From IMG/VR virus record IMGVR_UViG_3300038834_000178, positions 1-23,738 of that record: DNA of 23,738 bases. One strand, written 5' to 3'. This DNA comes from a virus. A model generated the notes under the pieces. The model saw only the letters and a list, made by a program, of their open reading frames with translations, had not been told where the DNA came from and did no database searches. A program made the position numbers and the translations under genes. Positions within the stretch are counted from its first letter, which is position 1. Each line of letters starts with the position of its first letter. This document shows, in pieces, positions 5,695 through 23,222 of this stretch.

Positions 5695-5934
5695 ATGGCA
5701 AACATTATCAGAAAAATAGTTGTTGGCCCCAATCCTAAAGACGCAATGGCTTACTATCTAGGTATGCGTGCAGGAGACGGCAAGGTGTCAGCTATTATGG
5801 AAGACGAAAGGTCTTTATACAAATACAATGTTCGTAGATACGAAGTCTATATAGAAGACCAAGATTCTACTTACCTTTGGAAAACTGTTGAGAATCAACC
5901 AGTATTAATTGAATATGATTGTAAATTTGAATAG
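5695..5934 (+). CDS. Small conserved-looking phage protein, unknown function
   Basis: A 79-residue protein starting MANIIRKIVVGPNPKDAMAY, with a GMRAGDGKVSAIMEDE middle and a WKTVENQPVLIEYD end. It reminds me of a short protein found beside terminase genes in other marine phages; no role is known. It is mostly beta strand by pattern. The ATG is preceded by the A/T-rich run AATTAATTACAT, much like the sequence before the first gene at 212, and no Shine-Dalgarno is present. Two bases separate it from the GroES-like gene. Confidence 0.75.
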   Translation: MANIIRKIVVGPNPKDAMAYYLGMRAGDGKVSAIMEDERSLYKYNVRRYEVYIEDQDSTYLWKTVENQPVLIEYDCKFE

Positions 5935-5936
5935 AC

Positions 5937-6542
5937 ATGAAGGCCGTATATCATTTTATGATAAGTGTCCCAAAGAAATTTGAGGACACTTTAAAGCTTG
6001 GGGATAAAGAGATATTCCTAGAAAGTAAATTTAACGAGTTTGAGCATAGGATCTCCTATGGAGAAATTATATCTACACCGATGAAACATCCAGAGCTAAA
6101 GTGTAAGCCTGGTGACACCCTTATATTTCACCATCACGTAACAACAAATCCAGCGTTAGACTTAGGAGAAGACAAGTATCTTGTTCTTTACGATCCAGTA
6201 AACGGAAGGATGAGTCAAGCGATAGCATATAGAGATAAAGATTCTGGAGAGTTGCATATGCTTTCTGACTGGCTTTTCGTTTTACCTGTAGACGAAAGAG
6301 AAGATGAGATTTCTGAAAGCGGTATCATTATGGAGCTTGCTACACAGAAAGAACTTGCTGATGAGGCAGAAATATATATGCCTCATCCAGAGTTAGAAGC
6401 TCAAGGTGTAAAGCCAGGTGATATTGTAGGTTTTGATAAAAACTCTGACTATAAAATAAAGCTAGATAACGGCGATGTTGTTTATAGAATGAGAGTAGAC
6501 GATATAAGCTATGTCAAAGTTTACGACGGAGAGTGCAGCTAA
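5937..6542 (+). CDS. Tandem GroES-like co-chaperonin
   Basis: A 201-residue protein that looks like two fused GroES-like domains. Half 2 (about 108-197) has DWLFVLPVDE, a mobile-loop-like EISESGIIM (124-132; GroES has a GIVL-type loop that docks on GroEL), GVKPGDIVGF (157-166, GroES vGDiVlF) and VVYRMRVDDISYV (181-193, GroES final strand). Half 1 repeats the plan: EIFLES (25-30), YGEIISTPMKHPEL (41-54), KPGDTLIF (57-64), YLVLYD. The matching blocks EI..P..HPEL..KPGD in both halves point to duplication. Phage GroES analogues such as T4 gp31 team with host GroEL to fold capsid protein; the same role fits here. The 3' end overlaps the next gene by 32 bases. Family call is by eye. Confidence 0.72.
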   Translation: MKAVYHFMISVPKKFEDTLKLGDKEIFLESKFNEFEHRISYGEIISTPMKHPELKCKPGDTLIFHHHVTTNPALDLGEDKYLVLYDPVNGRMSQAIAYRDKDSGELHMLSDWLFVLPVDEREDEISESGIIMELATQKELADEAEIYMPHPELEAQGVKPGDIVGFDKNSDYKIKLDNGDVVYRMRVDDISYVKVYDGECS

Positions 6543-6795
6543 AAGGCTTATGTCTTCTATGGAGCAGGCCATAGACAATATGATCAGTGAAATAAAAAAA
6601 CCTGTTGATCAAGAAATCAATGGTAGCGCACGTAAAGCTGAGTTGCAGTCTATAAAGCAAACTGCTATTGATTGTAAAGAGCTTCTTATAGAACGTCAGA
6701 AGTTAGAGCAGATGTTAAAAGATCTTTCTAGTAACGGGCAAATAGAAGAAGAGGCTGATTACAGTAGCGGTTTTGCAGAACGTTTTTCTAAATAA
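6511..6795 (+). CDS. Helical protein before terminase, candidate small terminase subunit
   Basis: A 94-residue almost all-helical protein. Residues 1-40 (SAAKRLMSSMEQAIDNMI) and 40-72 (KAELQSIKQTAIDCKELLIERQKLEQML) suggest a helical hairpin or coiled coil, and the end is SSGFAERFSK. There is no recognisable helix-turn-helix. Small terminase subunits are often short, oligomeric and encoded directly before the large subunit, and this gene overlaps the terminase start by one base (TAATG). That makes the role plausible, but it rests on position alone. It also overlaps the GroES-like gene by 32 bases. Confidence 0.75.
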   Translation: MSKFTTESAAKRLMSSMEQAIDNMISEIKKPVDQEINGSARKAELQSIKQTAIDCKELLIERQKLEQMLKDLSSNGQIEEEADYSSGFAERFSK

Positions 6796-8933
6796 TGCTT
6801 ATCGATGTTAATGAATATGATGAGCAAGCTGTTGGCATATGCCCCGATGGTACGCAGGGTAAAGTTATCACAATTAGTGGTCTACACATTATGCTTCCCA
6901 AACAACCAGCCGATTCCGATATTGCCTTCTACGACCTTCCGCAGGAGGAGCAATATTGGAGGCGTCAAGAACTACCCAAAGAGTTGCTTAGGATTCGCAG
7001 TATGGACGAGTGGATGGAGGCGCCGAGCGAGTTTAGAAAAAGGTTTCGTCCGTATATCGAAGAAGAATTTAGACGTAGGCGTCAGGGTTTTTGGTTTTAT
7101 AATAACGGCACACCTGTCTATATATCGGGGCGTCATTACATGTTCCTACAGTGGTCTAGAATAGATATAGGCTATCCGTCGTATCTTTCTTACCAACGTG
7201 AAATCTATCTACACATGGCTGCATGCGAGTCTGATCCTCGCTGTATCGGTCAGCTATATACTAAGTGTCGTCGCTCTGGCTATACCAATATCTGTGCTTC
7301 TGTTCTTGTGGACGAAGCTACACAGGTTAAAGACAAGCTTTTGGGTATACAGTCGAAAACTGGTAAAGACGCTCAGGAAAATATTTTTATGAAAAAGGTA
7401 GTTCCGATTTTTAAATCGTACCCTTTCTTCTTTAAACCTATACAGGACGGTACTACAAACCCACGTATGGAACTAGCTTTTCGAGAGCCATCAAAACGTA
7501 TAACAAAAAACAATAAAACCTCTGCAAAAGGTGAGGCGTTAAATACGATCATCAATTGGAAGAATACCACTAACAATGCGTATGACGGAGAAAAGTTGCA
7601 TTTACTGTATCTCGATGAGGCAGGTAAGTGGGAAAAGCCAACCGATATAAAGGAGGCTTGGAGGATACAAAGGACTTGCCTTATTGTAGGTAGAAAGATA
7701 GTGGGTAAGTCCTTGGTTGGTAGTACAGTAAACCCCATGGACAAAGGTGGTAAGCAGTATAAAAAGTTATGGGAAGATTCTGATCCGTGTATGCGTAACG
7801 CTAACGGAAGAACTGTGTCTGGGTTGTATAGACTGTTCATACCAGCTTATGATGCGCTAGAAGGATTTTTTGATATTCACGGAAATCCCGTTATAGAAGA
7901 TCCTAAGTCTCCAGTCGAAGGTATCGATGGAGAGCTAGTAGCTTTTGGCTCTAAGACTTTTTTAAAAAACGAAAGGTCTGCTATGAAAACTGATGCTAGG
8001 GAACTTAATGAGTTTATACGTCAGTTCCCGTTTTCTCCTGAAGAAGCTTTTAGAGATAGTATAGAGGGTAGCCTGTTTAATATAGGAAAGATCTATGAGC
8101 AGATAGAGCACAATGACGGGCTGTACCCTAACCCTATAGTTCAAGGAAACTTTGTATGGGTAGCTGGAAAGCGTGATGGAAAGGTTGCTTTTAGGCCTAT
8201 GGCTGACGGTAGGTGGAGGGTAGCATGGATGCCTCCAGCGGAAATGCAAAACAAAAGGGTTTTAGAAAGGGGTAAGCTTATAGCGCCAAACGCTTCATTC
8301 GGCTGTGGGGGTGTCGACTCTTACGATCTTGATGCTACTGTTGACGGTAGAGGATCTAAGGGTGCATGTCATTTGTTTAACAAGTTCAATATGGTGCATC
8401 CCTCTAATATGTTTGTTGCAGAATATGTAAGTCGACCTCCTATGGCCAAGATTTTTTATGAGGATATACTTATGGCTTCTTTCTTTTACGGATATCCTTT
8501 ACTTATAGAAAATAATAAATATGGGATCGTTAGATATTTTGAAGAACGTGGTTATGACGGTTATGTATTGGATAGACCAGATCACTTAAAATCATCTAGT
8601 TACAGCAGTAACGTTAAAACAAAAGGCATCCCGTCTAACTCACAAGATGTACTCCAAGCTCATGCTCAAGCTGTAGAAGATTATATTCATCAACATGTGG
8701 GGTATAATGAAGAAGGGGATATGGGAAGGATGTATTTTAATCGCACGCTAGAAGACTGGATAGGTTTTAAAATAAATGATAGAACAAAGTATGACCTTAC
8801 GATAAGTTCTGGCCTGGCTTTGCTTGCTTCTCAAAAGGTAGAAAAGAAAATAAAAAAGAGTAATTTTGAAGAGAAAACTTTTTTCAGAAAATACAAATAC
8901 AACTCTTCAGGCCCCTCAATTCTAAAAAAGTGA
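6795..8933 (+). CDS. terL: Terminase large subunit
   Basis: A 712-residue DNA-packaging motor. ATPase part: a terminase-type Walker A, KCRRSGYT at 157-164; Walker B with catalytic Glu, LHLLYLDEAG at 268-277 (Asp274, Glu275); coupling motif GSTVNP at 309-314. Nuclease part (RNase H-like): VDSYD at 507-511, acidic Glu543 in VAEYVSRP, and late Asp667 in YDLTISSGLAL. PFSPEEAFRDS at 412-422 is a typical terminase linker region. It cuts concatemeric phage DNA and pumps it into the prohead through the portal encoded next. The N-terminal 150 residues are longer than in small terminases. The last 25 residues are Lys-rich. The stop (8933) lies 7 bases before the next late-type promoter. Confidence 0.93.
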   Translation: MLIDVNEYDEQAVGICPDGTQGKVITISGLHIMLPKQPADSDIAFYDLPQEEQYWRRQELPKELLRIRSMDEWMEAPSEFRKRFRPYIEEEFRRRRQGFWFYNNGTPVYISGRHYMFLQWSRIDIGYPSYLSYQREIYLHMAACESDPRCIGQLYTKCRRSGYTNICASVLVDEATQVKDKLLGIQSKTGKDAQENIFMKKVVPIFKSYPFFFKPIQDGTTNPRMELAFREPSKRITKNNKTSAKGEALNTIINWKNTTNNAYDGEKLHLLYLDEAGKWEKPTDIKEAWRIQRTCLIVGRKIVGKSLVGSTVNPMDKGGKQYKKLWEDSDPCMRNANGRTVSGLYRLFIPAYDALEGFFDIHGNPVIEDPKSPVEGIDGELVAFGSKTFLKNERSAMKTDARELNEFIRQFPFSPEEAFRDSIEGSLFNIGKIYEQIEHNDGLYPNPIVQGNFVWVAGKRDGKVAFRPMADGRWRVAWMPPAEMQNKRVLERGKLIAPNASFGCGGVDSYDLDATVDGRGSKGACHLFNKFNMVHPSNMFVAEYVSRPPMAKIFYEDILMASFFYGYPLLIENNKYGIVRYFEERGYDGYVLDRPDHLKSSSYSSNVKTKGIPSNSQDVLQAHAQAVEDYIHQHVGYNEEGDMGRMYFNRTLEDWIGFKINDRTKYDLTISSGLALLASQKVEKKIKKSNFEEKTFFRKYKYNSSGPSILKK

Positions 8934-8970: not shown

Positions 8971-11421
8971 ATGGAGTACGGACAAAGTAAAGGAACATAC
9001 GGCAACTTCCCAGATCCATTTGCAAGTCCCATAGAAAAGGCTTCAAATGAATACGGACTGAAATACGCTAAAGCTATCCACGGTCAGTGGGGCTCTGGCG
9101 AAGACTCTTCATCACTACTAAATCGTAGGATGTATGAGTTTGAAAAAAATAGAGACTACGCTAACGGAACGCAGGATACCTCTATTTATAAACAGATACT
9201 TAACTCTCTTGATCCTAACAATGGTGACGGAACGTTACTTAATATAGACTGGTCCCCTGTACCTATCGTACCTAAGTTTGTAAAGGTCGTTGTAAACAGA
9301 ATACTTTCCCGTAAGCCCTATCCTGCTGTTGAAGCTATAGATCCTATATCTAAGCAAGAAAAAGAAATGCAGAAGGCTAAAATAAACTCTACGATAAAAA
9401 ACAAAAAAGAGTTTACAGAGGCTAAGCAGCTTGGATTAACTATGGAGCTTGATCCAGAAAGCGTACCAGATACTACTGAGGAAGCAGAAATATTCTTAGA
9501 CGAAAACATAAAGACTAGTGCAGAGATGGCAGCACAGTTGGCTACGTCTCTTACTTTAGATTGGAATGATTTTGATGAGCATATATATAGACGTTGTGTC
9601 AATGATCTTGTTACATGTGGTATAGGTGTTGTTAAAAGAAACAACGATCCCAACTACGGTATTACAGAAGAGTATGTAGATCCTTCATTCTTCGTACATA
9701 GCTACACTGAAGATCCGAATATGAATGACATCGTTTATGCAGGTCATGTAAAGCGCATGTCTATTATGGATCTCAAGCGTATGGCTGGCGACGAGTTTAC
9801 AGAAAAGGAGTATGAAGAAATGGCTAGAAAGGTTATGCATAAAAGCTATAACGATTCTGGCAAGTTTGCTAGCGGAGGTTACGATAGGAGTGGCAGAAAG
9901 ATGACGTATGGATATGATGACTATCTTATCGACGTATTACAGTTTGAGTTTAAAAGCGTAGACGAAGTTTTCTATGAAAGTAAAGAATCTCAGTTTGGCA
10001 ATGTAGGATTTTATTTTAAGGGTAGCGAGTACAAACCAGTTACTGATTCTGTATACGAAAGGCGGCCATACAAGATGGATGTAGAGACAGTATATGGAGG
10101 GTGCTATATTGTAGATACTGGCAGGTTGTTTAACTACGGTCAACAAAAGAACATCCCTAAAAATGTTCATGATATATCTAAGTGTACACTTTCTTATAGT
10201 ATAGCCTGCACAAATATTAGAAGAATGATGCCTAAGTCTTTGGTAGGTAGCATTACTGGATTTGCTGATCAACTACAATTAACACACTGCAAGATTCAAC
10301 AAGCTATTGCTAAAGCTAAGCCTGATGGATTAATTATAGATATAGAAGGTTTAGAAAACGTGCAGCTAGGCAGGGGTGGCGAGCTAAGTCCTTTAGAGAT
10401 TCAAGATATATACGAGCAGACAGGTATTATGTACTATCGCTCTAAGAATCCAGAGGGAGGTTTCCAAAACCCACCGATACGTTCTATAGAAAATCAGATA
10501 AGAAACATAAACTCTTTTATTAGTTTATACAATCACTACCTACGTATGATTCGTGATGCCACTGGGGTTAACGAAGTTATGGATGCTTCTACTCCAAAAG
10601 GCGATGCTCTTGTGGGTGTGCAGCAGCAGGCTATCGCTGCAGGTAATAACGCATTGTACGATATCACTAATGCTTCTCTTGTTTTATACAAGAAGGTGTG
10701 CTCTGATATTGTTAAGTGTTTACAAATTATACCAGAGGACTCTATACTTTATAGCGTGTATGAAAAGGCTATAGGTAAACATAGCATGGAGATCCTTACG
10801 TCATTTAAAGATCTCCCTATGTACAACTTTGGAGTGAGGGTTGTTAAAACAATGTCTGATGATGACCGTATTTTCTTAGAGCAAAATCTTCAAGCTTCTT
10901 TGGCTCAGAAAGAAATAGATCTAGAGGATGCTATGGCTGTGCGTCAGCTGAAAGATATTGATCAAGCTCAAAAACTTCTTATCGTAAGAAGGAAGAGAAG
11001 GATAAAGATGCTTCAACAGCAGCAGCAGCAAAACATCCAGGCTCAGTCTCAAGCCAATGCTCAAGCAGCTCAAGCTGCTTCTCAAGCTAAGCAGCAAGAG
11101 ATGCAGATGGAAGCTCAACTCGAAGCACAAAAAATACAACTCAAGGGACAGGTAGACGTTCAGGTAGCTCAGGCTATGCATCAGATGAGTATGCAGCTAG
11201 AACAGCTAAAAGCTCAAATAGCTGGAGGAACTCGTTCTGGAGAACAGATGTTTAGAGAGAAACTCGAAACAATGAAGGACGATAGAAAAGACCAGAGGGT
11301 AAAGAAGCAAGCTGTAGAGCAGTCTAAACTTATCTCTCAAAGAAAAGGTGAGCGTGCTCCCTTAGCAGATGTAGAGTCTGACAATCAAGATATACAAAAC
11401 TTTTTACAATCAATGATATGA
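8971..11421 (+). CDS. Portal protein with long Gln/Ala-rich C-terminal tail
   Basis: An 816-residue protein directly after terminase. Residues 45-105 (RRMYEFEKNRDYANGTQD, then IVPKFVKVVVNRILSR) are the usual start of large phage portal/upper-collar proteins; 560-600 (ATGVNEVMDASTPKGDAL, then QQQAIAAGNNALYDI) corresponds to the helical crown-side region. Residues 670-780 form a long Gln/Ala-rich coiled coil that begins with a run of six Gln. The portal forms the dodecameric ring at one capsid vertex through which terminase drives DNA. The length is at the long end for portals, mainly from this tail, which could reach into the capsid or act in assembly. The stop overlaps the next start (ATGA). 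Confidence 0.85.
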   Translation: MEYGQSKGTYGNFPDPFASPIEKASNEYGLKYAKAIHGQWGSGEDSSSLLNRRMYEFEKNRDYANGTQDTSIYKQILNSLDPNNGDGTLLNIDWSPVPIVPKFVKVVVNRILSRKPYPAVEAIDPISKQEKEMQKAKINSTIKNKKEFTEAKQLGLTMELDPESVPDTTEEAEIFLDENIKTSAEMAAQLATSLTLDWNDFDEHIYRRCVNDLVTCGIGVVKRNNDPNYGITEEYVDPSFFVHSYTEDPNMNDIVYAGHVKRMSIMDLKRMAGDEFTEKEYEEMARKVMHKSYNDSGKFASGGYDRSGRKMTYGYDDYLIDVLQFEFKSVDEVFYESKESQFGNVGFYFKGSEYKPVTDSVYERRPYKMDVETVYGGCYIVDTGRLFNYGQQKNIPKNVHDISKCTLSYSIACTNIRRMMPKSLVGSITGFADQLQLTHCKIQQAIAKAKPDGLIIDIEGLENVQLGRGGELSPLEIQDIYEQTGIMYYRSKNPEGGFQNPPIRSIENQIRNINSFISLYNHYLRMIRDATGVNEVMDASTPKGDALVGVQQQAIAAGNNALYDITNASLVLYKKVCSDIVKCLQIIPEDSILYSVYEKAIGKHSMEILTSFKDLPMYNFGVRVVKTMSDDDRIFLEQNLQASLAQKEIDLEDAMAVRQLKDIDQAQKLLIVRRKRRIKMLQQQQQQNIQAQSQANAQAAQAASQAKQQEMQMEAQLEAQKIQLKGQVDVQVAQAMHQMSMQLEQLKAQIAGGTRSGEQMFREKLETMKDDRKDQRVKKQAVEQSKLISQRKGERAPLADVESDNQDIQNFLQSMI

Positions 11422-11777: not shown

Positions 11778-14665
11778 GCGATATAAACTTAAGCATATCG
11801 ACAGGCACTAATGTGCTTACCCAGGCCGTAGGTAGTGATGAGGTAAACTTAGCTTTGTCTAGCACTACCAATGTGCATACTACAGCTATACAGACGCAGA
11901 ATAATATCTCTATAGATTTAGATGCTTCTGTAACTCCTACTAGTATACTAAACCTTACCGATGTAAACGCATCGTCTATAACAAATGGCCAGCTTTTACA
12001 GTTTGACTCTACTAGCGGTACGTTTTTAAATTCTGATATAAGTTTAAATGAGTTGTCTGATGTTGCCATAACATCAGTTTCTAACAATCAAGTGTTAGCT
12101 TATAATGCTACGTCAGGAAACTTTGTTAATGTAAGCTTAGACTCAGACTCTTTTAATATAGACGCATCACAAATAGCTGTAAATTTAGGTAGCGGCTTTG
12201 AAGGTAGGCTTGTTACAGTAAATAGTGACGGTACTTTAAACGCTGAAAATTTAGCGCTTTATGATACAGGAGGCTCTCAGGGTTTGCAATTAATAAGCAC
12301 CGATCAGGGTGAGCCTAGTATAATTTTAGACAATCGTAATTCATCATCTGCTAATCCTTCTTTTATTCAGTTTAGGAAAGACAAGGGTGCTGCTGGAGCT
12401 GATGGTGACGAAATAGGTAAAATAGATTTTGTATCGGACGATGCAGGGCAAACTATAACTTCGTTTGGTCAGATTCTAGCTGAGGTAGAAGAAGCAGACG
12501 ATAGTGATGAAGCTGGTAAGCTATCGCTAAAAGTTTCTAATGATGGCACACTAACAGACGGTATAGTAATAACAGGTGATAAAAGTACGGCAGGAGAGGT
12601 TGATGTTACAATAGGATCAGGTGCTGCTTCGCTTACTACGGTGGCAGGGGATCTTTCAGTAACAACAGGTCTAACATTAGGTACAGCTTTAACTGTAGCA
12701 AATGGTGGAACGGGAGCTACATCCTTAACAGATAACGCTTTCTTGATGGGTAACGGCACAGGAGCTATTGAAGCCAACCCTCATTTAAAATATAGTGATC
12801 CTGGTCCAAATGTAGATGTGTTTACTTTTGGTGATGACAATTCAGCATCAGTTACAATAACTACAGACAATCAAGCGCCTCTAAACTTAATCGCAAAAAA
12901 TGCTTCAGGAACCACTGATACTGATGGTGGTGATTTAACACTCAGAGCTGGAGGTTCTACTGGTGCTGGAGATCCAGGAGATATTATCTTCCAAGTTTCT
13001 CCAACAACTTCTACAGGTCCAGGTACAACTAACCAAAACATTCCTGTTGAAGTAATGAGGCTTGAGCAGGGATCTCTTACTCTTCAAAGTTCAATTAATA
13101 GTTCCCCATCTTTTATATTAAAAAGCACAGATAGTACTATGAATACTGGTCATAGTATTCAGTTTATTAGAGATGAAGGTGATGCAGGTCAATCTTTAGA
13201 TGTTCTAGGGATAATACAATTTACAGGCGATGATGCTGGTCAAAATCAAACTGACTATGCTAAATTTTTAGTAACTACTGATGTTGCTACTGATGGCCAG
13301 GAGTCTGGCAAGATAGAGCTACAAGTTGCAAGTCACGATGCTGAACTTGTAACAGGCTTGTCTTTGACTGGAGGTGATGCTGAAGATGAGATTGACGTAA
13401 CAATTGGTAGTGGATCTAATTCAGTTACTACTATATCTGGAGACTTAGATATTGATGGAGACAAAATAACAACTGCTGGTAATATAGAAATAGAAACAGG
13501 TGGTAGTGGTAATATAACTTTAGATGCAGCTGGGGATATAGCTTTAGAAGCAGGTGATGGAGACATTACTGCTAACGCTAATTCTTTTATATTAAGCAAT
13601 GATGTAGGCACAAGCTCAAATGAACCTAAACTTACAATACATTCTTTAGATAACACTAATAGCTCTGGTGTTTTAGAGTTTTTCTCCACAAGAGGCACTG
13701 CAGGCACTACTGATGCAAGTGATGGTGATGATCTTGGAAGAATAGATTTTAAAGGTCAAGATGACAGTACTCCTACAGAAAATACATATGCCTCAATACT
13801 TGGTCAAATTGTAGATGCTACTGCTAATAATGAAAAGGGAGAAATAAGATTTACAGTAAGTTCGGGTTATACTTTTACTTCGATTGCCGTTCAAGCTCTT
13901 TTGCTTACAGGAGGTAGTAATGGAAGAGCTGATGTAACTTTAGGTAACACTGTAAGTTCAATGACCACTACAACTGGTGACTTGACTGTTTCTGGTGGGG
14001 ATATTAATGGTCCTACAGATGGTAATTTAAATATTAGCTCTGACGACAACATCCTTTTAACTCTTGACGCAGATAGTGATAGTACTAGTTTTGTAAAAGT
14101 AGTTAGTGGAGCTAGTGATGTTGCTACAATATCTGAAACTGGAAGTATTTTTACGGCTGACACTATAGAGCTAGGGCACGCAACAGATACTACTATAGCT
14201 AGATCAGCTGCTGGCAAAGTTACTATTGAGGGTAACGAAATACAGACAACAAATGTTCACCATCATTTTCTTAATGCTGGATTTTTTATGAGTTTTCCTT
14301 TTTCGAGATTCATACCTTTAAATGGAAGTATTCTTGAACAAAATACATCTACAGCTTCACCAGAGTATACGCACTTTATTTTTCCTTATGATGGGTTTGT
14401 TAAAACTATGTGGTTAAGAAGTGAAACTGATATGGGAAGTACAGAGTTGAAATTGTTTGGAGGTACTGCTGGCAACCAGGTTACTACAGCTAAGGGAGCT
14501 GTTACAGCAACGGTTTCAGCTGAAGGTACGACAGAGTTTGATTTTACTTCTGTAACAAATACGTTTGTTCAAGGTGAATCTATGGCTGTCAGGATAGATC
14601 CAACTGACGATCCAGATGGCGGTCAAAATATTACTATAGAGTTAGTGTTTAACTTAACAACTTAA
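11774..14665 (+). CDS. Large modular tail or appendage fibre
   Basis: A 963-residue Thr/Ser/Gly/Asp-rich, Cys-free fibre. The N-terminal part has two short fibre repeats (near 58-92 and 91-121: ITNGQLLQFDSTSGTF, SNNQVLAYNATSGNF). Three related modules of about 120 residues follow (near 180-296, 444-560, 617-739), each with a G.I.F..DD core and ending in DVTIGSG..S.TT..GDL. A VANGGTGATSL segment at 308-318, typical of phage fibres, lies between modules 1 and 2. The end (826-963) starts HHHFLNAGFFMSF then RFIPLNGSILEQ and looks like a jelly-roll tip, probably the receptor-binding part. It forms a trimeric spike or fibre in the usual model. Confidence 0.82.
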   Translation: MSDINLSISTGTNVLTQAVGSDEVNLALSSTTNVHTTAIQTQNNISIDLDASVTPTSILNLTDVNASSITNGQLLQFDSTSGTFLNSDISLNELSDVAITSVSNNQVLAYNATSGNFVNVSLDSDSFNIDASQIAVNLGSGFEGRLVTVNSDGTLNAENLALYDTGGSQGLQLISTDQGEPSIILDNRNSSSANPSFIQFRKDKGAAGADGDEIGKIDFVSDDAGQTITSFGQILAEVEEADDSDEAGKLSLKVSNDGTLTDGIVITGDKSTAGEVDVTIGSGAASLTTVAGDLSVTTGLTLGTALTVANGGTGATSLTDNAFLMGNGTGAIEANPHLKYSDPGPNVDVFTFGDDNSASVTITTDNQAPLNLIAKNASGTTDTDGGDLTLRAGGSTGAGDPGDIIFQVSPTTSTGPGTTNQNIPVEVMRLEQGSLTLQSSINSSPSFILKSTDSTMNTGHSIQFIRDEGDAGQSLDVLGIIQFTGDDAGQNQTDYAKFLVTTDVATDGQESGKIELQVASHDAELVTGLSLTGGDAEDEIDVTIGSGSNSVTTISGDLDIDGDKITTAGNIEIETGGSGNITLDAAGDIALEAGDGDITANANSFILSNDVGTSSNEPKLTIHSLDNTNSSGVLEFFSTRGTAGTTDASDGDDLGRIDFKGQDDSTPTENTYASILGQIVDATANNEKGEIRFTVSSGYTFTSIAVQALLLTGGSNGRADVTLGNTVSSMTTTTGDLTVSGGDINGPTDGNLNISSDDNILLTLDADSDSTSFVKVVSGASDVATISETGSIFTADTIELGHATDTTIARSAAGKVTIEGNEIQTTNVHHHFLNAGFFMSFPFSRFIPLNGSILEQNTSTASPEYTHFIFPYDGFVKTMWLRSETDMGSTELKLFGGTAGNQVTTAKGAVTATVSAEGTTEFDFTSVTNTFVQGESMAVRIDPTDDPDGGQNITIELVFNLTT
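12311..13990 (+). repeat. Three diverged repeat modules inside the fibre gene
   Basis: The encoded blocks at about 12311-12661, 13103-13453 and 13622-13990 share the order P-S/K-F/L, GxIxF/GRIDF, DD-GQ or DDSTP, E-GKI or KGEI, LTGG, DVT-IGS, TT--GDL. They are diverged at the DNA level, so the duplication is old or the modules were acquired separately. Confidence 0.7.
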
Positions 14666-15228: not shown

Positions 15229-17445
15229 ATGAAAAATAAATCTTACTTATTGGTTTTTTTATTTTGGGTGTTAGCATCATATGTGCTAGGTCAAGGAAGT
15301 TGGTTGGATGTGCAGGTTCAAACAGATCAGTATGCTGGGGAGACTTCTTGGGAAATACTTAATGAAGACTCTGAAGTTGTAGCAGCAAGCCCTCCATATC
15401 AAAACAATACCTTTCAAAATCACATGGTGTTTCTACCGTCTGGAGATTACGAGTTTGTAATGATGGATGCTTTTGGTGACGGTATATGCTGTCAATTTGG
15501 AGAGGGCTGGTATAGGATAAGCAATACATGTGGATTAGATACAGCAGTGTATGATTTTGATACAGCTTTAGACACTATACCTTTTACTTTAAACCCCTGC
15601 ATACCCCCTCTTCCTGGGTGTACTAATCCTGTTGCTAACAACTACAATCCATGGGCTAACATAGACAACGGAAGCTGTAATGTATTTGAGTGTGACTCTA
15701 CAGAAACTTTGGTTTCTATGGATCTTACTTTAGATACGTGGCCAGGAGAAACTGGATTTACGTTAGTAGATATAGCTACTGGTGAGTTTTATGATCAGGT
15801 AATACCAGGAGAGTTTGATTTTGGAGATCAATTAGTTACATACACTTATAACTTTTGTGTTAGTTTAGGTTTTGAATTAATATTAGTAGACGAGTTTGGT
15901 GACGGACTAAACGGTTATGCTTCAGGCGGCGAAGATGGAGCGTGTGTTATTACTGCTTGCGATAGTGTGTTATGGGAGTTAGAAGATTTAGCATTTACCA
16001 CATTTGATGATGGTAATACGATGTACTCTGGAGCTATCTTTACTGAGCCATGCCCTCCAACACCTCCTATCTATGGTTGTATGGATGACGATTATGTAGA
16101 CTATAATCCAGAGGCTACACTTCCAGATACTTGCGAAACTTTACACACTTGGGGTTGTACAAATCCAGATGCTTTGAATTACGATAGCACTGCAACTATA
16201 GCAGATCTTGTAGGACCTTGTACTATACAGATCGTTCTTGAAGATGACGCAGCTGACGGGTGGGGTAATTCTACTATAGGTATGGTGCAAGGAGAACAAC
16301 AGTGGATGTTTACCGTAGGTCCTGGCGAGTTCTTTCAGTCATGGGATATTGTGCTAGACTCTGATGAAGAAGTCGATATATACTATTTTCAAGCTGGTAA
16401 TCAACAGCAATCATCTCAAGAGCTAGCTTTCCAGACTTTACATAACTCTGTATATGTCCTTAACGAAGCTGGGGACACTTTATTGTCTGAAGGCAGTAAC
16501 CCATTTATAAACAACGGACAGGGTGCTCTTCAGCCATTTACAGGTCCTAACTGGACGGTATATCACTTTACGCCGTATTGCGGAGACAGTTGTATACCTT
16601 ATATATATGGTTGCATAGATGACGCTGCTTGCAACTACAATCCAGAAGCCAACACAAGCTCTGAGTGTAACTACCCAGTTCAGTATTATGATTGTGCAAA
16701 TATGTGTGTCAACGACGCTGATGGCGACGGTGTATGTGATGAGTTAGAAGTTATTGGCTGTCAAGATCCAACAGCATTTAATTACAACGCCTTAGCAACA
16801 GACGCTGGAGATTGTATTCCAGTAATATTTGGATGTACTGATCCAACTCAGTTTAATTATAATCCAGATGCTAATACAGAAAACGGAAGCTGCATACCTT
16901 ATATATACGGGTGTATGAATCCAGATGCATTTAACTACAACCCAGACGCTAACACAGAGCTTGAAGATTCTTGTATAGAGGTAGTAGCAGATTGTATGGA
17001 TCCTGATGCATATAACTACAATGAGTTAGCAAACACTCCAGATGAAGAATCTTGCTTATATGACGCAGGTTGTATTACAGGACCTGGCGAGCCTTACTGG
17101 CTTAACGATGGGTGTTATGCATGGATTATCGATATAGATCCTTACTGCTGCGAAGTAGCTTGGGATGAGGCATGTGTTGATCTATACTCTTACTGTGAGC
17201 AAGGCTGGCCGCAAGGTGTATATGATATACATGATGTATATGGTGTATACCCTAATCCAACAAACGGATTATTGTATATACAAGCTCCATCAACAGCTAT
17301 GATATCTTTGTATAACTATTTAGGTCAAGTTATTATACAAACTTCTGATAAAACAATAGACCTCTCACACCTTTCAAACGGTGTGTATGAGGTCGTTATA
17401 CAATACAACTCTAGAATTATTAAAAACAAAATTATTAAATCATGA
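15229..17445 (+). CDS. Secreted multidomain protein with type IX secretion sorting domain
   Basis: A 738-residue Cys-rich acidic protein with (i) a signal peptide, residues 1-22, ending VLGQ; (ii) a beta-domain with the Bacteroidota motif DAFGDGICCQFGEGWY (80-95); (iii) a second such domain with DEFGDGLNG (221-229) and a third starting TIQIVLEDDAADGWGNS; (iv) eight Cys repeats of the form GC.(D/N)P.A.NYNP.A....C at 130, 283, 309, 461, 510, 535, 561 and 588; (v) a DADGDGVCDE calcium-type motif (497-506); (vi) a CCEVAWDEACVDLYSYC block (640-656); (vii) a C-terminal T9SS sorting domain, 674-738 (YPNPTNGLLYI, LYNYLGQVI, LSNGVYEVVI, KIIKS). It should pass the Sec system, then the host type IX translocon, to the cell surface. 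It sits among fibre genes, so a virion part cannot be excluded. Its stop overlaps the next start. Confidence 0.88.
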   Translation: MKNKSYLLVFLFWVLASYVLGQGSWLDVQVQTDQYAGETSWEILNEDSEVVAASPPYQNNTFQNHMVFLPSGDYEFVMMDAFGDGICCQFGEGWYRISNTCGLDTAVYDFDTALDTIPFTLNPCIPPLPGCTNPVANNYNPWANIDNGSCNVFECDSTETLVSMDLTLDTWPGETGFTLVDIATGEFYDQVIPGEFDFGDQLVTYTYNFCVSLGFELILVDEFGDGLNGYASGGEDGACVITACDSVLWELEDLAFTTFDDGNTMYSGAIFTEPCPPTPPIYGCMDDDYVDYNPEATLPDTCETLHTWGCTNPDALNYDSTATIADLVGPCTIQIVLEDDAADGWGNSTIGMVQGEQQWMFTVGPGEFFQSWDIVLDSDEEVDIYYFQAGNQQQSSQELAFQTLHNSVYVLNEAGDTLLSEGSNPFINNGQGALQPFTGPNWTVYHFTPYCGDSCIPYIYGCIDDAACNYNPEANTSSECNYPVQYYDCANMCVNDADGDGVCDELEVIGCQDPTAFNYNALATDAGDCIPVIFGCTDPTQFNYNPDANTENGSCIPYIYGCMNPDAFNYNPDANTELEDSCIEVVADCMDPDAYNYNELANTPDEESCLYDAGCITGPGEPYWLNDGCYAWIIDIDPYCCEVAWDEACVDLYSYCEQGWPQGVYDIHDVYGVYPNPTNGLLYIQAPSTAMISLYNYLGQVIIQTSDKTIDLSHLSNGVYEVVIQYNSRIIKNKIIKS
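16606..17055 (+). repeat. Run of Cys/NYNP repeats in the secreted protein
   Basis: Five of the eight Cys repeats lie here (residues about 460-609), each about 20 residues with two Cys and an N-Y-N core, joined by PYIYGC or VIFGC linkers. A DGDG motif separates the first from the rest. In Bacteroidota surface proteins such repeats act as disulphide-held spacers. Confidence 0.75.
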
Positions 17446-18978: not shown

Positions 18979-19347
18979 ATGAAAACTGTTCTAGTATCTG
19001 TATTATCGCTTCTATCATTATTAATGGTGGCGCATGTATCTCCTCTGGAGAGTGCCCCAGAAATTAGTAAAGACGGCATATGTGTTGCAGAGTTTAACGC
19101 TTCGTTCAACTCTCAAAACAGTGTGCCATGGATAGAAAAGCTAAACGACTGCACAACAACCCGTGTAGACATTGCCGTTGCTCCAGAGTTACAAATCGAG
19201 CACAAGATCGTAGTGGTCCCAACAATCGTTGTATTCAACAACGGAGAGGAGGTGGATCGCTTCCAGGCGAATATTATGATGACAATGGAGGCGAGTAAGA
19301 GTGATGTGCAGGGTGCTATTGACGAAATTATAATGAGCGACTTCTAA
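18979..19347 (+). CDS. Exported thioredoxin-like protein lacking the CXXC site
   Basis: A 122-residue protein with a hydrophobic N-terminal export segment (1-22, SVLSLLSLLMVAHV). The rest follows thioredoxin order: strand with VAEFNASF (36-43), helix, second strand TRVDI, VVVPTIVVFNNGEEV (78-92) with the cis-proline at 81, then the last helix. At the place of the redox motif CGPC the sequence reads about NSQN, so it cannot be a normal dithiol oxidoreductase; Cys35 and Cys58 are not paired in that way. A periplasmic binding or structural role is more likely. An overlapping out-of-frame ATG at 18972 was not chosen. The stop overlaps the next start (TAATG). Confidence 0.78.
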   Translation: MKTVLVSVLSLLSLLMVAHVSPLESAPEISKDGICVAEFNASFNSQNSVPWIEKLNDCTTTRVDIAVAPELQIEHKIVVVPTIVVFNNGEEVDRFQANIMMTMEASKSDVQGAIDEIIMSDF

Positions 19348-21764: not shown

Positions 21765-23222
21765 ATGGCTATTACACAAAGCTCAGGTAGAGAGTTTACT
21801 TTTGGTAGTGCTCCTAAAGGTGTTAACTATAACGCTTACAACTTAGGAAGCCCTATAAAGTATACGTCTCTATACGACTTCATCAAAGAAGTTAACGCCC
21901 CAGACGTACGTGCTAAATTATCAAAGACTTTTGGTAATCAAGGCATTTCTGGATTTTTACAAATGACTGGAGCTATCAAGTCTAATGGGACTGCAGATAG
22001 TGTTCAGTATTTCGAGGAAGCTCGTCTACACCAAGTTCAAAGAGCAGTTCTTAACGGAGCTCTTTCTGTTGGTGATCACGACGTTCTTGATTTTGATGGT
22101 GTTCAAGACGTTGAAGCTTCTGGCGGATCTTTTACAGACGCTGACAATAGTTCTTCACTTCAAAAGGTTGTTCGTAATGGAGACATCCTTTTATTAAATG
22201 GTGTTGACCGTCTATTAGTTACTGACGCATCTCCTTCTGGTTCAGCAACTGCTTTTAAGTGCACACCATTAACTGCAGCAACTGTTGCTTTAGCTGACGA
22301 TGCTGTTGTTGACATGCCGATTATCGGTAATATGTTCGCTCAAGGAACAGATCAGCCTTCTAATTTCTTAGAGTCTAATGTTGTTAAGAGAACTAACCCT
22401 TACGCTATCGTAAAGGAGTCATACGAAGTTTCTGGATCACAAGCTACTAACATCGGCTATATCGATGTAGGTGGTGGAGATATGCGTTACTACATCAAAG
22501 GAGAGTCAGACACTCGTCAGCGTTTTATGGATAAGCGTGAGATGGTAATGCTTCTTGGACAAAAGGTAACTAACACTGGAGATATTACTGATATTGAAGG
22601 TACTGAGGGATACTTCTCAGCACTAGAAGATCGTGGTATGGTAACTTCAGATCTTCTTGGAAGCAACGGTCTTGCTGACCTAGATGCTCTAATTAAGGAG
22701 ATGGATAAGAACGGATGTCCTGCTGAATACGCTGTTTACTCAGCTACTCGCCAAGACCTTCTTCTTGACGATATGGTTGCTGGTGCTGGTGCTGGTGCTA
22801 ACGTTACTGCAGGTGTTGCTGCAAGCTTTGGAGCTTTCAACAACGACAGAGACATGGCTCTAAACCTTGGGTTTAAGTCTTTCTCTCGTGGCGGATACAC
22901 GTTCCACAAGAACAGCTTCAAGCTTCTTAACGATCCAACACTTCTTGGTAGCGACGACGTTCACAACAGACTAGCTGCTGGTGTGATGATTCCTCTTGCT
23001 AACGTAGTAGATCCACGTTCAGGTGAAAGAGCTCCTGCTCTAGAGATGAACTATAAGTCTGCTGGCGGTTATGATCGTGAGATGGAGCACTGGGTAACTG
23101 GTGGTGGCGTTCTTGGATTCACTAACGATACAACAGATATCGCTAAGTTCCACTACCGTTCAGAGTGTTGTCTAGTAACAAGAGCTGCTAACCAGCACGT
23201 TCTTATTCAAGGTACTGTTTAA
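21765..23222 (+). CDS. Major capsid protein
   Basis: A 485-residue protein right after the scaffold. It has mixed alpha/beta content with a large beta part, no Cys-rich or enzymatic motif, and a start (AITQSSGREFTFGSAPKG then NYNAYNLGSPIKYTSLY) that I associate with major capsid proteins of marine tailed phages, presumably HK97-fold. EEARLHQVQRAVLN and MDKREMVMLLGQKV fit the long helices of that fold. Codon use is strongly biased and the DNA is less AT-rich than its neighbours, as expected for the most highly made virion protein. The GCTGGT repeat near 22780 encodes an AGAGAG turn. The A-rich ATG context has no Shine-Dalgarno. Confidence 0.85.
   Translation: MAITQSSGREFTFGSAPKGVNYNAYNLGSPIKYTSLYDFIKEVNAPDVRAKLSKTFGNQGISGFLQMTGAIKSNGTADSVQYFEEARLHQVQRAVLNGALSVGDHDVLDFDGVQDVEASGGSFTDADNSSSLQKVVRNGDILLLNGVDRLLVTDASPSGSATAFKCTPLTAATVALADDAVVDMPIIGNMFAQGTDQPSNFLESNVVKRTNPYAIVKESYEVSGSQATNIGYIDVGGGDMRYYIKGESDTRQRFMDKREMVMLLGQKVTNTGDITDIEGTEGYFSALEDRGMVTSDLLGSNGLADLDALIKEMDKNGCPAEYAVYSATRQDLLLDDMVAGAGAGANVTAGVAASFGAFNNDRDMALNLGFKSFSRGGYTFHKNSFKLLNDPTLLGSDDVHNRLAAGVMIPLANVVDPRSGERAPALEMNYKSAGGYDREMEHWVTGGGVLGFTNDTTDIAKFHYRSECCLVTRAANQHVLIQGTV

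Follow-up and report, generated by a model that had tools for sequence, protein, structure and literature searches.

The question raised by this locus is what a virus of marine flavobacteria does with two predicted GroES-fold domains that are joined in a single chain and encoded beside its terminase. GroES heptamers cap GroEL by way of their mobile loops (PMC5780408). In phage T4, GroES is replaced by gp31, which is required to fold the capsid protein gp23 (PMC6318259). The classic example of tandem GroES domains comes from plastids. There, Cpn20 works as tetramers or in mixed seven-domain rings (PMC5780408, PMC3542282) and is the precedent for even-numbered domains acting on a seven-fold chaperonin (PMC5780408); how such a cap works has long been debated (PMC5780408, PMC3542282).

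The gene, its neighbours and its family

The window is the whole stretch of viral DNA that was analysed, 23,738 nucleotides in length; judging from its named relatives, the host would be flavobacterial. The gene lies where the original prediction placed it, adjoining the terminase, and is directly upstream of a 94-residue open reading frame (ORF) and the gene for the terminase large subunit (TerL). The features of this region, together with a more distant head gene, are:

5695..5934, + strand: 79-residue upstream neighbour, found in the same place in MW202828 and matching the 75-residue ORF of that genome (BLASTP E 1e-6)
5937..6542, + strand: predicted tandem GroES-fold protein, 201 residues plus stop; PHROG 13932 'co-chaperonin GroES', E 8.9e-30
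6511..6795, + strand: 94-residue ORF between the co-chaperonin gene and TerL, overlapping both
6795..8933, + strand: terminase large subunit; phrog_6681, E 3.9e-208
8971..11421, + strand: portal protein; phrog_6547, E 5.4e-196
21765..23222, + strand: virion structural protein; phrog_13704 'virion structural protein', E 5.8e-109

The ORF at 5937-6542 is under purifying selection, with a dN/dS of about 0.1-0.25 relative to its relatives. Its match to PHROG 13932 pairs residues 1-193 with positions 1-198 of a 200-position profile, and this profile matches all 52 sequences of the family alignment, which includes the relatives of the window protein. Named carriers are phi18:3 (gp096), with counterparts in phi46:3, phi13:2 and phi19:3, as well as elemoA (gp33) and Calle_1 (gp013); the member in MW202828 is unannotated. 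The window protein shows the same full-length match and the same terminase-side place as gp096, gp013 and gp33 and is a member of this family; the proteins of phi18:3, MW202828 and elemoA are 18-24% identical to it. Cellulophaga and Flavobacterium phages carry the gene adjoining the terminase, and in MW202828, phi18:3, elemo and Callevirus, as in the window, it is found a short way upstream of TerL and portal. At least several hundred related loci are present in IMG/VR; of the six matches in bacterial genomes, every one lies on a MAG contig.

The gene and its co-chaperonin label are thus already known, and 'chaperonin cpn10' is a listed core protein of the Pervagoviridae (PMC8776804). A search of the open-access literature for tandem, fused or double-domain phage GroES returned plastid work only. 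In the literature searched, the Cpn20-like tandem build and the loop asymmetry explained below appear to be undescribed.

Among the virion proteins of phi18:3 and phi40:1 that are marked by MS/MS, the tandem homologue is absent and its neighbours are present, which fits a non-structural role in assembly. The product of 21765..23222 is probably the major capsid protein and as such a candidate folding substrate; its counterpart in Callevirus is annotated as structural/major capsid. The 94-residue ORF may be a detached N-terminal part of the terminase, because the SGFAERFS motif in its C-terminal part is found again in the longer TerL of Callevirus, at residues 136-151. The window terminase itself is distantly like those of crAss-like phages (22-26% identity), whereas the families matched by the head genes are those of flavobacterial podoviruses.

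Two predicted GroES-fold domains with unequal loops

The protein is predicted to consist of two GroES-fold domains in one chain, each with an element at the position of the GroES mobile loop:

5937..6251, + strand: GroES-fold domain 1, residues about 1-105, assigned from an AlphaFold2 (AF2) model and a weak profile match
5988..6029, + strand: domain-1 element at the mobile-loop position, residues 18-31; triplet I26-F27-L28 at 6012-6020
6129..6134, + strand: His65-His66 pair of domain 1
6252..6539, + strand: GroES-fold domain 2, residues about 106-201, assigned from profile, Pfam and PDB-chain matches
6300..6350, + strand: domain-2 mobile loop, residues 122-138; S-G-I-I-M at 128-132, with GIIM at 6321-6332

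Domain 2 is readily placed. It matches a profile of 47 cellular GroES sequences (hhalign probability 98%, E 2.5e-13) and is the part that is matched when the family profile is compared with PDB GroES chains (E 1.4e-5). A direct search of the PDB with the single window sequence gave no match. Pfam Cpn10 (PF00166) aligns with residues 109-190 at 21.0 bits, just below the curated cut-off of 21.1, and some relatives score above this cut-off. Domain 2 resembles cellular GroES/Cpn10 in fold, mobile-loop motif and profile; the window protein differs from it in its tandem build and in domain 1, which is strongly diverged and has an invariant histidine pair.

Domain 1 is nearly unrecognisable as GroES from its sequence, and its fold is seen through structure prediction. 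The hhalign match to cellular GroES is weak (probability 46%, E 2e-4), its score being 27.1 where the highest of 60 column shuffles was 17.3, and comparison with Pfam, single-domain PHROG and PDB sequences gave no usable match. Modelled alone with AF2 (residues 1-110), the domain reaches a pLDDT of 90.9, and the best 16 VIA rows are all co-chaperonins, the top one being 8wuc_a (3.1 Å over 82 residues) with a Z of 7.6, a value under 8 that calls for caution. The next row is an alcohol dehydrogenase with a Z of 5.2. The catalytic domain of alcohol dehydrogenase is itself called GroES-like. The original prediction had read the GroES order of strands in both halves: structure prediction agrees for both, while profile comparison agrees for half 2 and is marginal for half 1.

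The model of the whole chain has a pLDDT of 87.9 and a pTM of 0.82. Its best VIA match is Cpn20 (7ekq_R), which aligns with model residues 3-195 over 163 residues at a Z of 9.5 and 5.0 Å, an rmsd and a Z range that call for caution. This Z exceeds that of every single-domain match (7.8 or less), and GroES, Cpn10 or gp31 fill the 15 rows that follow. The proposed likeness to the double-domain co-chaperonins of plastids is thereby upheld as a predicted fold match, which does not by itself show common descent. Pf-Cpn20, a plastid/apicoplast protein, likewise has two GroES-like domains head to tail and is about 16% identical to the window protein. Unlike Cpn20, the latter is phage-encoded, has no N-terminal extension or transit peptide, carries unequal loops and has one domain that is unrecognisable by sequence. 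As Cpn20 is plastid-targeted and nuclear-encoded and the window protein is neither, it is not filed as Cpn20. In addition, 7ekq is a ClpP complex, so that the fold match to Cpn20 does not prove a GroEL partner. T4 gp31 is also a phage-encoded GroES fold and both halves of the window protein match its structures (1g31, 2cgt), but gp31 is single-domain and heptameric, so the two-domain chain is not filed there either.

The repeated EI..P..HPEL..KPGD block that had been noticed in both halves is present in the window protein, with HPEL at residues 51 and 150 and KPGD at residues 57 and 159. The local score between the halves is 54, a value reached by 2 of 2000 shuffles. As a sign of ancestral duplication the paired HPEL was rejected, because half-1 HPEL occurs in just 3 of the 52 aligned sequences and is specific to one lineage; HP[ED] in half 2 is found in 7 of the 52. 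The features that the halves share family-wide are the GroES strand order and the GD turn. Bearing on duplication versus fusion, domain 2 is closer by hhalign to cellular GroES, as given above, than it is to domain 1 (E 1e-4).

The two loops differ in how well they are kept across the family. The original prediction held that a mobile loop was clear in half 2 alone, and for the window protein, with its SGIIM, this stands. Across the family the order is reversed: the half-1 triplet is constant and the half-2 GroES-like loop is found in about half of the relatives. In domain 1, the EIFLE at residues 25-29 corresponds to a family-wide pattern of [ILF][YFI][LIV] at 26-28, where the three columns are hydrophobic in 52, 50 and 48 of the 52 sequences, respectively, and without gaps. 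The length of this segment is constant at 30-32. From its position and composition it may be a mobile loop, although AF2 models it as an ordered hairpin and the GG/SG lead-in is missing. In domain 2, the loop has the lowest pLDDT of the folded part (63-76). It is GroES-like, with SGI, in 25 sequences and degenerate in 8; in the other 19 it is shortened or deleted, with 16-22 residues in place of 24-29. Outside the loops, His65-His66 and Tyr172 are invariant in all 52 sequences and Arg184 is nearly so. These are not GroES features and possibly form dome or inter-domain contacts.

Chaperonin genes in the relatives

A GroEL partner could come from the phage or from the host. The Cellulophaga phage phi38:1, for one, produces its GroEL in the course of infection (PMC13288928). 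Chaperonin genes were counted in records of at least 50 kb, a set in which the IMG/VR records are not certified complete; named tandem-bearing relatives of known length are 60-76 kb. In the window clade, neither GroEL nor a second GroES was found in any of the 11 records of this size (L003, L007, L034, L041, L042, L044, L073, L326, L362, L365 and L380). A groES match was present in 40 of 40 sampled genomes of the class Flavobacteriia, so that a phage of the window type would find chaperonins in its host.

The clade in which the half-2 loop is deleted presents a different picture. Here, GroEL and a single-domain GroES are both encoded in nine of the 10 records above 50 kb (MW202828, elemoA, G014, G015, G016, G113, G114, G116 and G117), and the separate single-domain GroES of the GroEL-bearing relatives is canonical, with its mobile loop intact. 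The exception is G115, a record of 54 kb (locus L256), where GroEL and separate GroES were not found although its nearest relatives have both; a recent loss and an incomplete record are the candidate reasons. Calle_1 also has both genes. The phi18:3 genome (L024) carries a single GroES at 1651-1905 and the tandem gene at 12001-12603, with GroEL not found, so that the two proteins could combine in a mixed ring on the GroEL of the host. In Gundel_1, neither GroEL or single GroES nor the tandem protein was found. Compared with the PHROG 13932 members of phi18:3, Calle_1 and elemoA, the window clade is thus set apart by its canonical domain-2 loop and by having no separate GroEL/GroES in the records searched. 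The idea that the tandem protein replaces groES does not hold simply and everywhere, since an ordinary GroEL/GroES pair is encoded by many relatives as well.

By count, the loss of the domain-2 loop is strongly associated with possession of GroEL. A dependence of the one on the other was rejected as a general rule. On the tandem-protein tree, the GroEL label and the loop trait each change only twice, independent pairs give no support, and the loop was lost in L380, which has no phage GroEL. For these reasons the association is reported as essentially one evolutionary split and not as a replicated correlation. The tree has long branches whose placement is unsure (L024, L226, L026, L073 and L380).

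A co-chaperonin for virion proteins and its alternatives

The explanation that we regard as probable is that the window protein is a two-domain co-chaperonin with the build of Cpn20 and the mode of action of gp31, which would fold virion proteins by capping the GroEL of the host. The tandem fold, the place next to the terminase, the lack of other chaperonins in the clade searched and the lack of detection in virions all fit a dedicated co-chaperonin. GroEL binding, ring stoichiometry and substrate are the steps that we infer. Each chain would present two GroES barrels, placed like the two domains of Cpn20. A dome over the GroEL ring would take three or four such chains, to which one single-domain GroES of host or phage might be added. 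In the lineage of the window, apparently without a GroEL or another GroES of its own, docking would most likely be on host GroEL and would take place through the hydrophobic triplets I26-F27-L28 of domain 1 and I130-I131-M132 of domain 2, both of which occupy the mobile-loop position. The resulting cage would be adapted to one of the virion proteins, for instance the capsid protein, in the manner of gp31 in T4.

Several observations speak against this explanation, among them the near-unrecognisable sequence of domain 1 and the ordered hairpin predicted in place of its mobile loop. In addition, the tandem protein persists in relatives with an ordinary GroEL/GroES pair, most often in a form from which the domain-2 loop is missing, and GroEL capping alone therefore does not explain its retention everywhere. 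L380 has lost that loop without a phage GroEL, and the invariant His65-His66 and Tyr172 are foreign to GroES. Some of this lends weight to the main rival, in which the GroES fold has been re-used, independently of GroEL, in a factor for head assembly or packaging whose target is terminase, portal or capsid and whose loops make other contacts. Linkage to the terminase, a canonical domain-2 loop that is absent or decayed in 27 of 52 sequences, invariant residues that canonical GroES does not need, a complete GroEL/GroES pair coexisting in one large clade and the ordered domain-1 hairpin all favour it. We nevertheless hold it to be unlikely: domain 2 of the window protein retains the canonical SGII loop and a clear similarity to GroES profiles, which is unexpected without GroEL contact, and the domain-1 triplet is hydrophobic in nearly all relatives.

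A mixed cap, in which tandem chains join a single-domain GroES to give seven domains (2+2+2+1) with loops of different strength alternating, overlaps the capping explanation and differs from it by needing a single-domain partner. This partner would be that of the host in the window clade and that of the phage in the GroEL-bearing clade. Plastid Cpn20 and Cpn10 form such hetero-oligomers with seven GroES-like domains (PMC5780408), tandem proteins without the domain-2 loop are nearly always accompanied by a single-domain GroES that is canonical and keeps its mobile loop, and phi18:3 has the single and tandem proteins with no GroEL. As the single-domain and tandem genes are far apart in the genome and no phage single-domain GroES is present in the window-clade records searched, we see a required partner as a somewhat more doubtful proposition than GroEL-independent re-use. 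It is very improbable that the protein is a decoy or inhibitor that poisons folding by host GroEL. Too few or uneven loops could indeed block GroEL; however, the gene sits in a structural operon beside terminase and portal and not among early takeover genes, and it is retained in phages with their own GroEL.

A bolder form of the capping explanation, which we put forward with about as much doubt as the mixed cap, is that of an independently evolved, Cpn20-like phage co-chaperonin forming an uneven GroEL cap, either as mixed 2+2+2+1 rings or as even-numbered rings in which strong and weak loops alternate. In the GroEL/GroES-bearing branch, the tandem subunit, without one of its two GroEL-binding loops, would then shape the dome to fit a large virion protein. 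A widespread and divergent family of bacterial viruses with the same build as the plastid protein would be a ready comparison set for the even-cap question, offering natural variants in which one loop is kept, decayed or deleted, in backgrounds that have or lack phage GroEL and single GroES. The family further suggests that a gene for a dedicated folding aid adjoins the packaging genes in many flavobacterial podoviruses.

Two further genes of the window encode proteins with signal-peptide-like N-termini. The one at 15229-17445 (+ strand) specifies a 738-residue protein that has about eight repeats of the type GC.[DN]P.A.NYN..A and carries a sorting domain for type IX secretion at its C-terminus (Por_Secre_tail, E 4e-10), and it looks like a phage gene made for export by the type IX system (T9SS) of the host. 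The other, at 18979-19347 (+ strand), encodes a thioredoxin-like protein of 122 residues (Pfam E 0.0016, below the cut-off).
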